Shown piece after piece: positions 5,201-13,555 of a stretch of 64,000 nt of DNA; within the stretch, counting starts at the first letter, position 1, and every line of letters starts with the position of its first letter. Below the pieces are notes generated by a model. The model had not been told where the DNA came from, ran no database searches, and was given only the letters and a program-made list of their open reading frames with translations. Origin of the DNA: Naegleria lovaniensis (taxonomy: Eukaryota; Heterolobosea; Eutetramitea; Acrasida; Naegleriidae); the NCBI RefSeq assembly GCF_003324165.1, contig NW_025407834.1:620001-684000 (forward strand), written 5' to 3'. The translations under genes and the position numbers were made by a program.

Positions 5201-6879
5201 ATGATAAGGGCAGAATTATTAATTTATTTTCCAACTAAATTGTACTTTTCGGGAGAGAAAATTGTCGGATATGTCGAGTTAAGGCTTCCATCACAGATGG
5301 GCATTTACGGAATCAAAATAGATGTATTTGGTCGCGAATACTATACAACCAATTTGCAACAAGCACTCAAGACAAATTCTAATACTCGAGTCACTCGTAT
5401 CTTTTATGAATATTCGACAAAACTCGAAGGTAGAGGTAAGTATCGATTTATTCCTCACACAAAATCGAATGTTATGTGCATTAATAATTAACCCGTTGAT
5501 CAATCTTATTATTTTCGGGATTTGGAATTTTCATGCATGACTACCCTTGGTACTTTGTAAATTCAATGAATATGATCGCAACAACAGGAAGCACAAAGAA
5601 AGAAGAACGAGAGTTCTTTGGTCTATTTAAAAAGCAGGTGAATACCGTCCTTCCCGCTGGTGTTTACAAGTACGATTTTGAAATTCAACTACCTGATTTT
5701 ATACCACCAACCTATCGTACCAATCAGTCAGCCCTTACTGGATCGAAGAGTAATTACGGAATGCCAGCAATTGACTATGAGTTAAGATGTACGTGCATGA
5801 ACTCGGACAAGAGCGTAGGAGACTTGATATCGTCTGCAGCCATTCCGGTTGGAGGCTCTTTAATGACTCCTTCTTTCATGGGATCTAACTCAACTCCGTT
5901 CACAGACTCAAAAGTGAAGACATTCTTGTTTGCCAATGGCCAAATTAACACAATGCTTCAAATGCCTTCTCGAGTTTTCCTCACTGGTGACTATCTTCAT
6001 GGTCAATTGACCTTGGAGAATACTTCACAAAAAACAGTGTCGGAATGTACAATGTCATTCATTCAGAGAGTCGACTGCTTAAAGTCAGGTCAAAAGATTC
6101 CAATCAAAAGTGACGTGTACGTCATTAAGAAGATTGTTATCGGAGAGTTGAAAGCAAAAGAAAAGAAGACTTTAACGTTAAATCAACAAACGGGTGTCAA
6201 GGTTCCAGACTTTTGTGTTGAAAGCATTTTCCCTTATCAAAAGATGGGCACGCTTGTCAATGTAGGCTACTTTATCAAGGTCACGGGTAAACTCTCCTTG
6301 GCCACTGATCTAGATTACGAATGCTTGCTTTATGTCGCAAACAGAATGAGACATATGGCTTATTTCCAACAAGTTCAAACAATGTCTCAACCATTCATGA
6401 GCGCAGCGTCTCCTTCCCTTGTAAATACTGAGGTTTCTCAAATCAACCAATCTGTTTCTCCTTACTACCAGCAACCATCGCAGTATGGTGTGGTGAGCCA
6501 TGAGCAGCAACAGATTCATTCAATCCAGCAATATCAGCAACCAATGCAATCTATGCCTCAACAGCAACAAGCAATGCATCGGTCTCAATCCTTCAATGAT
6601 CACATGAAGCAATCTGTTGAAGAAAATGTTTCGGTGCCATTGGATGGTTCAGCACCACCAGAACAAGAAGCAACAGAGTATTTCGAATACCAAGATGATC
6701 AACAAAATATGAGTTTATATCCAACAGTTGAAAGATACCACTTACCACCGATTCCACTCTCTGCTTACGAGACAGAAGCAAGAAGACAATTGGAACACGA
6801 ACATCAACAACCACCTGTTACAGGGATGCAACATGCCAACTATGACATTAGCACAGTGAATTACCCAAGATATCAATAA
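5201..6879 (+). CDS. Arrestin-fold (alpha-arrestin-like) protein
   Basis: Two exons, 5201..5435 and 5588..6879, joined in phase 1 across a 152-nt intron (GTAAGT...CAACAG); product 508 aa. The N-terminal half has the arrestin N-domain pattern (YFSGEKIVGYVELRLP, then IKIDVFGREYYTT). The second half carries the arrestin C-domain pattern (PSRVFLTGDYLHGQLTLEN, later SIFPYQKMGTLVNVGYFIKV). The last 150 residues are Gln/Pro/Met/Tyr-rich and probably disordered, ending with tyrosine-containing motifs such as TVERY that could be adaptor sites. Alpha-arrestins link membrane cargo to ubiquitin ligases and endocytosis, but I see no clear PPxY, so the partner is unknown. Start ATG 5201 is the first in frame. 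Confidence 0.82.
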
Positions 6880-6933: not shown

Positions 6934-9900
6934 TCATGCTTTGATTTCCTCATTGAACGTATTGTCTTGTTGGATTTGAGGTAATGCAAGTCGTTCAAGG
7001 TCTGTATCAATAGATTGCTGTAAAGTGCCAGAGAAGTGGTTGCCTTGAATTTCAACAGATTTATGACAGCACTCGTTGCTTAGAGAAACATCGAAACAAG
7101 TGTTGTGAGAAAATCTGTTATCGCAAACAGACACCACCAGGAATGTGGACTTTTTAATCTCTAACATTAAGTGTTATCAGAGAGTACGTAATTGAAACAA
7201 CTTACTAATGGCGGAAGCAAATAAATGGTCAGAAAAAACATTGTCCTCAATAACACCTGCACATTGATCCAAAACAATTGCAAATTCCAAGCTGTCAGTA
7301 AAAATGTTCTTTTTGATATTGAGCTTTGGAATGTTCGTTGCTTTCATACAAAACGCCCCATTTTTCATAAATCGATTGTTGGTAATATGAATTTCATTTG
7401 TTGTGCAATTATTGATGTGTTCGGTGTCGTTCATGACGATAACCCCTCCTCCCATGTTTCGTGAAATCCTGTTGAACCATTTTGTAAGTATTTTCAAACA
7501 ATGTCAATACTTACAAATTATCCTGCATGATCAGTGCATGCATGTTATCAGCAAATCGAACAGAAATAGAAGCAGAGAGAGCGCTTGTATTGTTAATTGT
7601 GTTTCCAATAATTTTAACCTCTCCTTCCATGTCTTCAAGTGACACTCCTTTTAAATTGTTGAAAAGCTTGTTCATACAGAGCTGTTAATCCACCATTGGT
7701 ATTGTTTTCCAATGTTACCTAAATCAACCCTTAACGAGAATACCTACCTGAAGCGATGACTCTTTGCGGCTACACACCATTCTTTCATTCCTGTTAGTTC
7801 GTTCTCATGGAAATCGATGTTTGAATCTTTGATCGCTATTCCTTTCTTGCAGTTTTTAAACTCGTTTCCATTAATACTTCCAATGCTATTAGCAATGAGA
7901 ATACATGCACCATTGTCAAAAAAAGAGTTGGCTTGCACTTCTATATTTTCACAATTTTTAACATGAATAGCCATGAATTATTACTCCAGTTGTTGTAAAA
8001 GTGATTGTCAGAAATCATTCCTCCGTAGCAGTTAACAATCATAATTCCATTAGTTTCTGTGCACGAAAATTGATGTAAATGTAATTTTTGAAACATACCA
8101 TTGTCATGAACCTTGTTGCTCAATATTTGCGGGCAGCATCCTTCGAAATAGAGAGCACTCCCAACAGCATCATTGCCTGGAGCTTGACAATTGCCAAATA
8201 TCTCATTCTCTTCAATCATTGGCGATATTCGACTCGATCGTCCAATGGCATGTATGCGTCCCTTAATTTTACAGTTAACAATCCTTGGTTGACATTGATC
8301 AATTTCAATAATAATTGGTTTTCTAAGAGAAATAATTGAAACTATTGAACTGTTCACATAACAACCTACGTCAGTAGACTTCCTTTGGTCAGTTTTCTTC
8401 CAACAAAATTCATTTTCCTTATTTCTGCATTATGTAAAATTGTTATTCGCTCAGCTTGTAACACAGCTTCCTCATCACCTTCTTCCACGCCTTCAATGGT
8501 TAAATTTTCTCGTTCAATGTTCAGATCGGCCTGACGATGTTTATGAACACCTGGATGCAAATAAATAATCACATGCACTGAGGAAGGTTGCTTCTTGGCG
8601 TAAATTAGCGCTGCCTCAATAGAGTTAAACCTCTTCTCTTCACTCTTTGTAAATAATCTCTTGAAAGACGATGCAAAAGTGTGTGGATAAACGTGTATGA
8701 CAAGCTCTGTACGTTGTGAGGCTTGGACGAATGATTTTGATCTTCTCCTCATTTCTTTGTTTTCCTTTGTTGAATGTTCAGACTCCATTGAGTACAAGTC
8801 AGCAAGGCTCTGGTATCTAGTAAAAAGTTCCTCACTCTCAGGTTGTGGTTTTTCAAGCGTCTTCTCACTGTCTATTTGAGCTAATTGCTGTCTCATTGTT
8901 ACGAGAATCTTTTGTTGTGCTTCGGAGAGATGATTTCTGGGAGGAGGAAGTGGCTGGATTGTGTTCTTTTCCAACGTTACTTGGTTGATTTGCATTTTCC
9001 TTGATTTGGTTTTCTTCATTAGGCAGAAATGGTAAATTGCTGTGGAGTGTATTCTTTTGTGAGGATCTTTGTGAAGCATTTCTAGAACGAGATCGATAAA
9101 ATCCACCTCCTTATTGGAGAGAGAGAAAACCATTTTGCTCTTGAGATCGTCTCTCACTTGTTGTTCGGAATGTTGAAGTAAATCCCAGGCTATTCTTTTT
9201 GTAAAGTCCAATGTCAGTATTTGGTACAGAACTACTCCCAAGGCAAAACAGTCGACTCTAAATCCATATTCTTGACCGGAAAGAACCTCTGGAGATAAAT
9301 AAGTGAGGGTTCCAACCTTGGAATGTCTTGACGATTCCTCTATTTCTTTGCTGAGACCAAAGTCTGCCAAAACAACAGACAGGCCATCACTGTGAACATC
9401 CTCAATTAGAATATTTGCTAGCTTAATGTCTCTATTTTCGGTTCCTGCTCACCATTCGAAAAACAAACCAATGTGTACAACCTATGAACAATATTATTCT
9501 TGTGAATGTGAGAAAGTGCTTTTGAAATATTTGTTGCCACAGAAAGAGCAACTTGAAATTTTGTTGGCACTCCTTGATGGATCGTTCCTTCCAAACCAAC
9601 CTCCCTTGAGGATGAACAATTAACATCACACTGAGTTTTTCTGTTTAAAGGAGATTTGATGAATTTTTCCAAATCATTCTTATAAACTGGCATGGAAAAG
9701 TACATGACATAAACATTAAATTCTTGTTGAATATCTATATAAATGTCATAAACAGGAGTGATTCTAAAATCATGTCCTCTTCCGTTTTGATTCATCTTTA
9801 CGAGAAGAGAATATTCCTCAACTGCATTCTCCAAACAAGCCTCATCCTCAACAAGTACACTTTTAAGGGCAATTATCTTGCCGTGATGATGTTGCACATT

Positions 9901-10188
9901 TTCCTTCTCCTCACCTTGTTGTAACTGCTCACACATGAAAACACTACCACCCGCCCCACGTCCAAGTCTCTTCCGAACAATATACAGTTCAACCACTCGT
10001 GAGAGAGTGCTGTCCGAATATACAGTAATACGATCTTCCTTCAATTTTAAATATTTACATTGTGATAATAATAATTGATGATGATGATTATTGAACCATG
10101 AGATTGCTAGAGGCTCGCAAGTAAGTTGCCTCTCATGATCAGCATCATGATTCGGGCGTGTGGTAGGTTTATCCGTGAGTGTGAACAT
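6934..10188 (-). CDS. Protein kinase fused to right-handed beta-helix (two apparent frameshifts)
   Basis: Seven exons on the minus strand: 10188..9482, 9431..8370, 8322..8099, 8056..7748, 7681..7515, 7468..7206, 7160..6934. Introns of 42-66 nt. The N-terminal half is a Ser/Thr-type kinase: glycine loop LGRGAGGSVF, ALK lysine, VHRDIKLANIL catalytic loop (split by the first intron inside HRD), ADFG, SPEVL. After a linker come many coils of about 22 residues with the N-x-F/I pattern of pectate-lyase/CASH-type parallel beta-helices (SDNHFYNNW, IQGNHFSG). The frame breaks near 7975 and again between 7760 and 7790; adding one base at each restores a continuous 986-aa protein with regular coil spacing. 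A GTAATA...ATATAG 44-nt intron could explain the first break, but it would delete one coil. Substrate unknown. Confidence 0.75.
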
Positions 10189-11980: not shown

Positions 11981-12058
11981 AACAGACCAATTAAAATCCA
12001 ACTTGTCATGGCCACATGAGATAATGCATCTATGACTTGTGTCCGAGATTAAAAAAAA

Positions 12059-13555
12059 ATGTCCAATTTCATTCCGACACGAGTGATCAAAGGTTCTGTC
12101 ACTTATCGTTATGGTTTGTTTCCAGACGAAGGACAACAACAGCCCAAATCTTCTTCATCGTTGTCCAATGCACCACCTCTCCACACAACCTTGCCGATCG
12201 TGATTGAACCCAACACAGAAATGGTAGATCATGATCGAAACAACTCTTCCAAAGACTCGCTTCTGTTATGGATTTCACAAAACAAATCATGGATTCGAAA
12301 TGTGTTAAATTCTTCTGGAGCGATTCTCTTTAGAGGCTTTCAAATCATGTCTGCACAAGATTTCGAAGATGTTGCACTCGAAGCAGCTCACTATCCCTTG
12401 CAAGATGGTTATTTGGGAACTTCACCAAGAAATCGCGTTACCAAATACACATTTACTGCGAGTGAATTTGGGCCTATGGTTCCAATTCCGCAACATTTGG
12501 AAATGAGTTTTCTTCCAAACTCACAACCAAAGGTGAGTATATGAATTTATTGAACTTTTTCTTAGATTTGATGGATTGAATCATTGAAATATATTGTGCT
12601 GCATGAACACATTGGAATTATATTCACACAGGAAATATTCTTTTACTGTCAATCACCTCCAGAGAATTTACATCAAGGAGAGACTCCAATTTGTGATATG
12701 AGATTGGTCTATCAAAATCTCAATGAAGAATTTAAAAGAAAACTTGACAAGTACCAAGTAGCCAATGTCAGAAATTATTGTTCAAAACGACATGCACAAC
12801 ATCATCACTCCTTGTTTTCCATCTCATTTTGGTCCAATATTTTGAAACAGTTAGATCCATTCCGTACCAAACCATGGGAAGATATTTTCGAAACAGAAAG
12901 TGAATCTCAAGTTTACAAGTTGTGTGAGCATGATCAGGTGGAGCCACGATGGAAACAAGGGAAGGAATTGGAATTGTACAATGAACATGATCCTATCAAG
13001 CAAGTACCATTTGCATTGCCATCCAATGATGCGAATCGTCATGGTGAAGATTCAAGTTCAAAAAACACTCAAGGACAGTCATCATGTTTCACTTGGAGTA
13101 ATCACATGCAAGTATTTCATATTGATGCAGTGCCTTGTGAGTATCGTCAAGTGGCACAGAGACAACAACGATGGATCATTTACTTGTTATGGATGATTGC
13201 ACTTGTTGTGATATTGATCAAAAAGTTACTCGTGTCAAGACATGATCAAGCTCAACATGCCTTTTTCGTACCAAAAAGAAGTGTTGCGGACAATGGAAAG
13301 GATCATGCTCAACAAACAAATGGTGTTGAAAACAGTAAGAAAGAAAGCACATTTGGCTCAGAAGAAACAACGAAGGAATTGGAATTGAGCACGAAGGAAA
13401 TTCAGCATGTGAGTGATACCATTTGGCAAAATACTGTCTTCTTTGATTGGCGCAAAGGGGATGTCATGATGCTCAACAATTCCATCATTAGTCATGGAAG
13501 AATGCCTTATACTCAAAAGAAGAGCAAGAGAGTCATCCTGACTGCATTTTGTTAG
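12059..13555 (+). CDS. TauD/TfdA-like Fe(II)/2-oxoglutarate dioxygenase with membrane segment
   Basis: Two exons, 12059..12532 and 12632..13555, phase 0, 99-nt intron GTGAGT...CACAG; 465 aa. Family features: GAILFRGFQIMSAQDFE (about residues 97-113), an H-x-E iron-binding pair in PQHLEMSF, PPENLHQGETPICD, and the distal histidine with the following Arg in ISHGRMPY near the C terminus. Between the two metal sites there is an insertion holding a hydrophobic helix, IIYLLWMIALVVILI (about 13180-13220), then a charged low-complexity linker. The family oxidises small or lipid-like substrates. The helix suggests a membrane-attached enzyme and a non-polar substrate, which is inference. The A9 run before the ATG matches other starts here. 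Confidence 0.8.

Follow-up and report, generated by a model that had tools for sequence, protein, structure and literature searches.

Kinases joined to parallel beta-helix repeats have been described in cyanobacteria. Among the cbSTKII kinases tabulated in 2007, PbH1 repeats are given for Alr2502 (Pkn22) and Ava_0434, with eight each, and for CwatDRAFT_1649, with three (PMC2176072; this and the other papers given by PMC number are cited from extracts of their text). A "kinase + pectinesterase" of Nostoc PCC 7120, perhaps the same gene as Pkn22/Alr2502, was reported in 2005 (PMC1262709). Two-hybrid assays show an interaction of Pkn22 with HetR, which is phosphorylated on Ser130 when produced in Escherichia coli together with the Pkn22 kinase domain (PMC6985446); the extract of another Pkn22 paper contains no helix terms (PMC4518582). 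In the F-box protein FBXO11, the CASH domains are described as important in substrate recognition (PMC8825234); our literature search found no FBXO11-BACH1 cryo-EM paper. Here we analyze a kinase–beta-helix gene of Naegleria lovaniensis (Heterolobosea), located in a window (the whole stretch of DNA analyzed) of 64,000 nucleotides on contig NW_025407834.1 (positions 620,001 to 684,000, forward strand, of assembly GCF_003324165.1).

The gene, C9374_001435, occupies positions 10188 to 6934 of the minus strand of the window, with the same limits as in a first-pass annotation made from the letters alone. Read on the genomic DNA, it is one gene of seven exons, with short GT-AG introns (42–66 nt) between them, the start codon at 10188–10186 and the stop codon at 6936–6934. 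The deposited model (P0001) has 914 amino acids. The N. fowleri model FDP41_012159 (P0002, 980 amino acids), compared at the level of the protein sequence, is unbroken and has the same domain order. Exon 2 starts at the HRD aspartate and remains open, without an in-frame stop, across the linker and into the beta-helix cap. Because this exon spans kinase, linker, and cap in one frame, the two parts are not two neighboring genes; the question, raised at first reading, of one transcript or two is thus answered on genomic DNA rather than cDNA. As far as the genomic DNA and two gene models go, the fusion is confirmed as a genuine single gene. Its product is apparently a soluble Ser/Thr kinase, and we hold it to be an even bet that the C-terminal right-handed beta-helix would act as a rigid docking arm.

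The kinase domain and the beta-helix

The kinase domain (PF00069, E = 2.1e-35) covers residues 70–369 and is complete, as first annotated. The Gly loop, the VAIK Lys, HRD, DFG, and the APE-like Glu are all present, and the motif positions inspected are identical in N. lovaniensis and N. fowleri (18 of 18). The domain reads as a Hanks-type Ser/Thr protein kinase with intact-looking catalytic motifs and would presumably be active. A comparison of the kinase part with PDB sequences gave no match up to 1e-20; among the matches listed (the best 60 of 388 at 1e-10), CaMKII and rhodopsin kinases come nearest in sequence, with a best E of 3.7e-18 and alignments that cover chiefly the C-lobe, and the domain appears to fit no clear group. 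The ten relatives with the best scores in its own genome, out of 46 scored among 239 candidates, share 31%–42% identity with it in the aligned region, and the nine that were fetched have no beta-helix match (PF13229 at E ≤ 0.001) on the same strand within 3 kb. Within the searches made, the gene seems to have no close second copy in its genome.

With an X put at each of the frame changes described below, the tail as a whole matches PF13229 with 65.8 bits (E = 4.5e-18; cut-off 25.9). The tail before the first frame change alone gives 21.9 bits, below the cut-off. With the gene models, the scores are 43.9 bits (P0001) and 99.5 bits (P0002), and P0002 also matches TIGR03804 (para_beta_helix) at 3e-10, exceeding its cut-off. 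Beyond residue 560, P0002 contains 20 N-x-[FILV] matches; those spaced 21–31 residues apart, with one N-E-M added by eye, suggest about 14 coils. The beta-helix recognized at first from the coils stands, with about 14 of them in place of the ten then counted. The 22-residue period ranks top for hydrophobic residues (reached in 29 of 1000 shuffles) and for G+N (68 of 1000); with N alone, 14 comes first and does not stand out from the shuffles (259 of 1000). Periodicity on its own is thus modest evidence for the helix. No pectinesterase, pectate lyase, or similar beta-helix enzyme family of Pfam matches at E ≤ 1 (at the level of family profiles, not residue by residue), so that the polysaccharide cleavage initially considered finds no support there. 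At E ≤ 0.01, no F-box family matches P0001 or P0002, and no UBR-finger family matches P0002.

A structure model built from two sequences was useless (mean pLDDT 35.2). A second one, built from 14 sequences (mean pLDDT 62.9, pTM 0.42), is serviceable for the kinase and the first half of the helix; its 14 rows include distant kinase-helix proteins that possibly lend it the helix shape, and the relative placement of its domains is untrustworthy. Most of the kinase lies at 64–91 pLDDT, with parts (including residues 257–269) below 50. Most of residues 491–740, the cap and the early coils, lie at 70–94 by blocks of ten and form repeated short strands, while the later coils range from 29 to 76 and the linker falls below 50. 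In fold searches of PDB and viral libraries, the best 50 rows of each are kinases or unnamed entries. Against PDB sequences, the helix profile returned seven rows up to E = 1, all unrelated, and the single helix sequence had no match up to 0.1. The predicted helix fold is therefore based on the profile matches and the model, without a structural match.

Exons, introns, and frame changes

The features of the gene are as follows (window coordinates, all on the minus strand).

9482–10188 (−): exon 1, with start codon, N-terminal tail, and kinase N-lobe up to HR of HRD; junction shared by P0001 and P0002
9432–9481 (−): intron 1, 50 nt, GT...AG; splicing restores HRD; matches P0001 and P0002
8370–9431 (−): exon 2, 1062 nt, kinase from the D of HRD, linker, and beta-helix cap in a single unbroken frame
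9032–9981 (−), split by intron 1: protein kinase domain, residues 70–369 (PF00069; coordinates calculated by hand from exon lengths)
8711–9031 (−): linker, residues 370–476, low model confidence, with a conserved basic RRSKSF stretch
8370–8710 (−): cap and first beta-helix turns, residues 477–590, last codon completed in exon 3
8323–8369 (−): intron 2, 47 nt (genomic reading and gene models)
8099–8322 (−): exon 3, beta-helix coils (genomic reading, Pfam)
8057–8098 (−): intron 3, 42 nt, in frame, as in N. fowleri P0002
7748–8056 (−): exon 4, beta-helix coils, with two frame changes in the assembly; P0001 omits parts
7682–7747 (−): intron 4, 66 nt, placed by eye with the N. fowleri model as guide
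7515–7681 (−): exon 5, beta-helix coils (genomic reading and P0002)
7469–7514 (−): intron 5, 46 nt (genomic reading and gene models)
7206–7468 (−): exon 6, beta-helix coils (genomic reading and gene models)
7161–7205 (−): intron 6, 45 nt (genomic reading and gene models)
6934–7160 (−): exon 7, final coils, C-terminal tail, and stop codon (genomic reading and gene models)

For introns 1, 2, 5, and 6, our reading agrees with the junctions of P0001, and where both sequences exist they are identical. Introns 3 and 4 flank stretches that P0001 omits and were placed against P0002. A frame change at 8370 was considered and rejected, since an ordinary 47-nt intron fits there. In exon 4 of the N. lovaniensis assembly, the reading frame shifts twice between about 8056 and 7748, and the first-pass annotation aptly spoke of a frame-corrected protein: P0001 skips the affected coils, and P0002 reads through them unbroken.

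On either side of the gene, the plus strand carries a neighboring gene at 5500–6879 with arrestin C and N domains (PF02752, 3.9e-10; PF00339, 6.1e-06) and, at 12572–13555, a piece of a TauD-family dioxygenase (PF02668, 4.5e-18); another open frame lies upstream of this piece, at 12053.

Conservation and apparent absence of a membrane segment

Between N. lovaniensis and N. fowleri, identity amounts to 35/59 in the N-terminal tail, 247/300 in the kinase, 61/102 in the linker, 98/114 in the cap, and 218/353 in the coils. With slightly shifted bounds, the cap (118/138) is more conserved than the coils (205/344; Fisher p = 1.7e-8) and does not differ from the kinase (246/298; p = 0.49); this contrast compares two sequences, with cap bounds set by hand. 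The cap, at the entry from the linker, would thus be the most constrained part of the helix, about as constrained as the kinase. Within the otherwise variable linker, the basic stretch RRSKSF (about residues 465–470 of the reconstructed protein) is common to both species. It could be a phosphorylation site.

The best 19-residue hydropathy values are 1.51 in P0001 and 2.07 in P0002, the latter within a coil; four receptor-type kinases of the same genome, described below, reach 2.84–3.11. The first 45 residues contain no hydrophobic stretch (best 12-residue mean 0.68). By hydropathy, no transmembrane helix was seen, in agreement with the first-pass annotation. A receptor-like nature, also proposed then, does not suit this gene, although receptor-like helix kinases exist in the genome. 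The protein is apparently soluble and would be intracellular.

Other helix kinases in the N. lovaniensis genome

The genome searched (30.69 Mb, 97 contigs; 30.84 Mb and 111 contigs as published, PMC6125883) contains 53 PF13229 matches at E ≤ 0.001, which we grouped into 39 places; the window gene lies outside these 39. A kinase match on the same strand within 5 kb accompanies at least 19 of the 39, with the helix first in 17 and the kinase first in two. These counts are lower bounds, since the kinase places were picked by hand from searches scoring 119 of 600 and 136 of 540 candidates, and proximity of the two matches is no proof of one gene. As a rough figure, about 1.4 pairs would be expected at random if 200 kinase places were scattered over the genome. 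Thirteen of the 17 helix-first places are above the curated helix cut-off and four (C55, C29, C20, and C28) below. With these places and the cyanobacterial cases (PMC2176072, PMC1262709), the architecture can hardly be called uncommon, as it had been.

Four helix-first places were read in detail, and in all four hydropathy indicates a transmembrane segment between helix and kinase. These are receptor-like kinases with the order beta-helix, transmembrane segment, kinase (L026, 3589–6840; L024, 2339–6479; L027, 2643–4682; L020, 3257–6187). The two kinase-first places (C56 and C66) are near-identical copies of another kinase-helix gene, hereafter the second type, represented by C9374_013088 (P0003) and with a relative in Willaertia magna, ABK040_005849 (P0008). 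The loci of the second type are L012 (2855–5866), L011, and L014 (4092–5821), with the models C9374_013088 and C9374_008558: two near-identical copies and one helix-only. The helix-only model (P0005) lies near the end of C37. The label TKL (as we use it for the second-type and the receptor-like kinases) comes from motifs, PF07714 matches, and the tree, not from a classifier.

No description of this set of helix kinases was found among the papers listed, screened by title and opening of the abstract, in a literature search covering few subscription papers. A term search in the extracts of PMC6125883, PMC9928731, PMC8296547, PMC4082629, and PMC1420674 gave no beta-helix kinase.

Relatives and origin of the fusion

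Among candidates sharing words and of similar length, the helix part of the window gene matched only proteins of N. lovaniensis and N. fowleri, and no N. gruberi ortholog was among the matches (candidates limited to 0.55–1.75 times the query length). The distribution thus looks narrow so far, as the lineage-specific character suggested earlier would have it. In its own genome, no convincing paralog of the helix part was found: other places have E = 0.02–0.4, and the three at E = 0.02–0.04 are both copies of the second-type gene and its helix-only copy on C37.

The helix of the second type has 11 protein matches. Seven are from Naegleria, Willaertia magna, or unnamed sources (including P0009, 38% identical over 34% of the query); among the others are an F-box protein of Sinanodonta woodiana (P0010) and two kinase + helix proteins (P0011 and P0013), one of which carries in its source the name "serine/threonine protein kinase/nitrous oxidase accessory protein NosD." The last two look bacterial. 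In P0012, from the same search, a TIR domain is joined to a beta-helix. When one genome per prokaryote species was scanned with P0011, nine loci came up: six match its kinase as well as its helix part (five cyanobacterial and one of Ktedonobacteraceae), and three match the helix part only.

A tree of 19 kinase domains puts the second type in a group with the four receptor-like kinases and divides this group from the window kinase by a branch (starred in the tree) with support 100/99; according to a warning of the program, that split is also where long branches meet, and the tree is supportive, not final. The bacterial kinases fall on the side of the window kinase, poorly resolved and not grouping with it. 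Since the tree separates the window kinase from the other helix kinases, the fusion looks independent of theirs. Profile comparisons (hhalign) link the second-type helix with the bacterial (97.7% probability) and F-box (97.6%) helices. The helix of the window gene aligns with that of the F-box protein at 54%–64%, and its cap alone gives 5.6%, 0.2%, and 0.2% against the second-type, bacterial, and F-box helices. Judged by these comparisons, the window kinase appears separate and its helix strongly diverged.

A proposed docking arm and alternatives

A docking arm agrees with the order of the parts (kinase, flexible linker, conserved cap, rigid solenoid) and with the lack of both a membrane anchor and an enzyme signature. 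The helix would hold a target protein or partner, which the kinase would phosphorylate, and the variable basic linker would set the reach and perhaps take part in regulation. Binding of the target might direct or switch the kinase, and the helix would bind protein rather than sugar; the substrate-sorting role first proposed fits such a scheme. In favor of docking are the intact motif positions, the constraint on the cap, the helices related to that of the second type, which sit on other signaling or ligase proteins (F-box P0010, kinases P0011 and P0013, TIR P0012), and the precedents of FBXO11 and Pkn22. Several points weigh on the other side. The helix of the window gene has no measurable kinship to the bacterial type and a middling one to the F-box type, and its cap alone finds no match in the second-type, bacterial, or F-box helix. 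Only the kinase domain of Pkn22 (residues 1–325) was co-produced, so that phosphorylation of HetR needed no helix (PMC6985446), and neither the FBXO11 nor the Pkn22 precedent tested a kinase's helix. The N. lovaniensis copy carries frame changes, which may put in doubt a full-length protein from that strain. And beta-helices often bind sugars.

An alternative is a cytosolic sensor, in which the helix would bind a carbohydrate (for example, a fragment of eaten bacterial wall or of glycogen) and so activate the kinase or shut it off. Carbohydrate binding is a classic role of beta-helices, as the title of the CASH paper also says, Naegleria eats bacteria, and in the four helix-first kinases read, a transmembrane segment lies between helix and kinase, an arrangement that would suit a sensor. 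Against this, no carbohydrate-enzyme family was detected at the threshold given above, wall fragments become less probable as a ligand if the protein is indeed cytosolic, and conservation within the helix is highest in the cap, beside the linker. We consider such a sensor improbable, and the docking arm the better account. A decay of the gene in N. lovaniensis, with real frame changes, a truncated protein, and a copy still working in N. fowleri, also appears unlikely to us. It would explain two frame changes inside about 310 bases and a deposited model forced to omit coils. However, the assembly was made from PacBio RSII reads with Quiver polishing, Illumina being mentioned for RNA (PMC6125883), so that small sequence errors are plausible and the frame changes can plausibly be taken as residual ones; besides, kinase and cap are 82%–86% identical to those of N. 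fowleri, the 18 motif positions are intact, and exons 1–3 have no in-frame stop. That the kinase and the beta-helix are two adjacent genes misread as one has next to no probability: nothing speaks for it beyond the caution of the first-pass annotation, and the single open frame of exon 2 and the fused models deposited in two species speak against it.

Comparison with known systems

The combination of kinase and beta-helix is already known in cyanobacteria; the Naegleria variant is new. With it, the proteins that tie a beta-helix to a signaling enzyme come to include a Ser/Thr kinase that is eukaryotic and apparently soluble. The larger surprise is the family around it, a set of beta-helix kinases (at least 17 helix-first places, 13 above the cut-off and four read, and a second type with the kinase first) in a genus to which a human pathogen belongs. 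It is conceivable, at somewhat less than even chances, that Heterolobosea use the beta-helix as a general recognition module of kinase signaling, where plants use leucine-rich repeats, with surface receptor kinases and at least two separately arisen intracellular docking-arm kinases (the window gene and P0003/P0008); the window gene would be the Ser/Thr branch, so far in Naegleria only. If the helix picks the substrate, its removal would be a direct test of how beta-helices recognize proteins.

The second heterolobosean type has, like the window gene, the kinase first, then a linker, and then the helix. The two helices align (hhalign 84.5% probability, E = 7e-6), although repeats may align through the fold alone, and the caps hardly do. 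The second type differs in a long insert in the cap and a low-complexity tail, and its kinase, 29% identical to that of the window gene over 102 residues, lies on the opposite side of the starred branch. The helix-first kinases of the same genome also combine beta-helix and kinase, but in the reverse order, with a transmembrane segment between them (in the four read) and with kinases that group apart.

Kinases of the Pkn22 type resemble the window gene in carrying the kinase and parallel beta-helix repeats in one protein, and the mapped relatives (P0011, P0013, and L036) also have the kinase first and the helix last. With P0011 and P0013 as stand-ins for Pkn22 itself, sequence comparison brings out no close kinship: the helices give 0.3% in hhalign, and the kinases are 24% identical over 253 residues. 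The F-box proteins of the FBXO11 type share the beta-helix module, there on a ligase subunit, and one F-box protein (P0010) is among the 11 matches of the second-type helix; where FBXO11 has its F-box, the window gene has a kinase.

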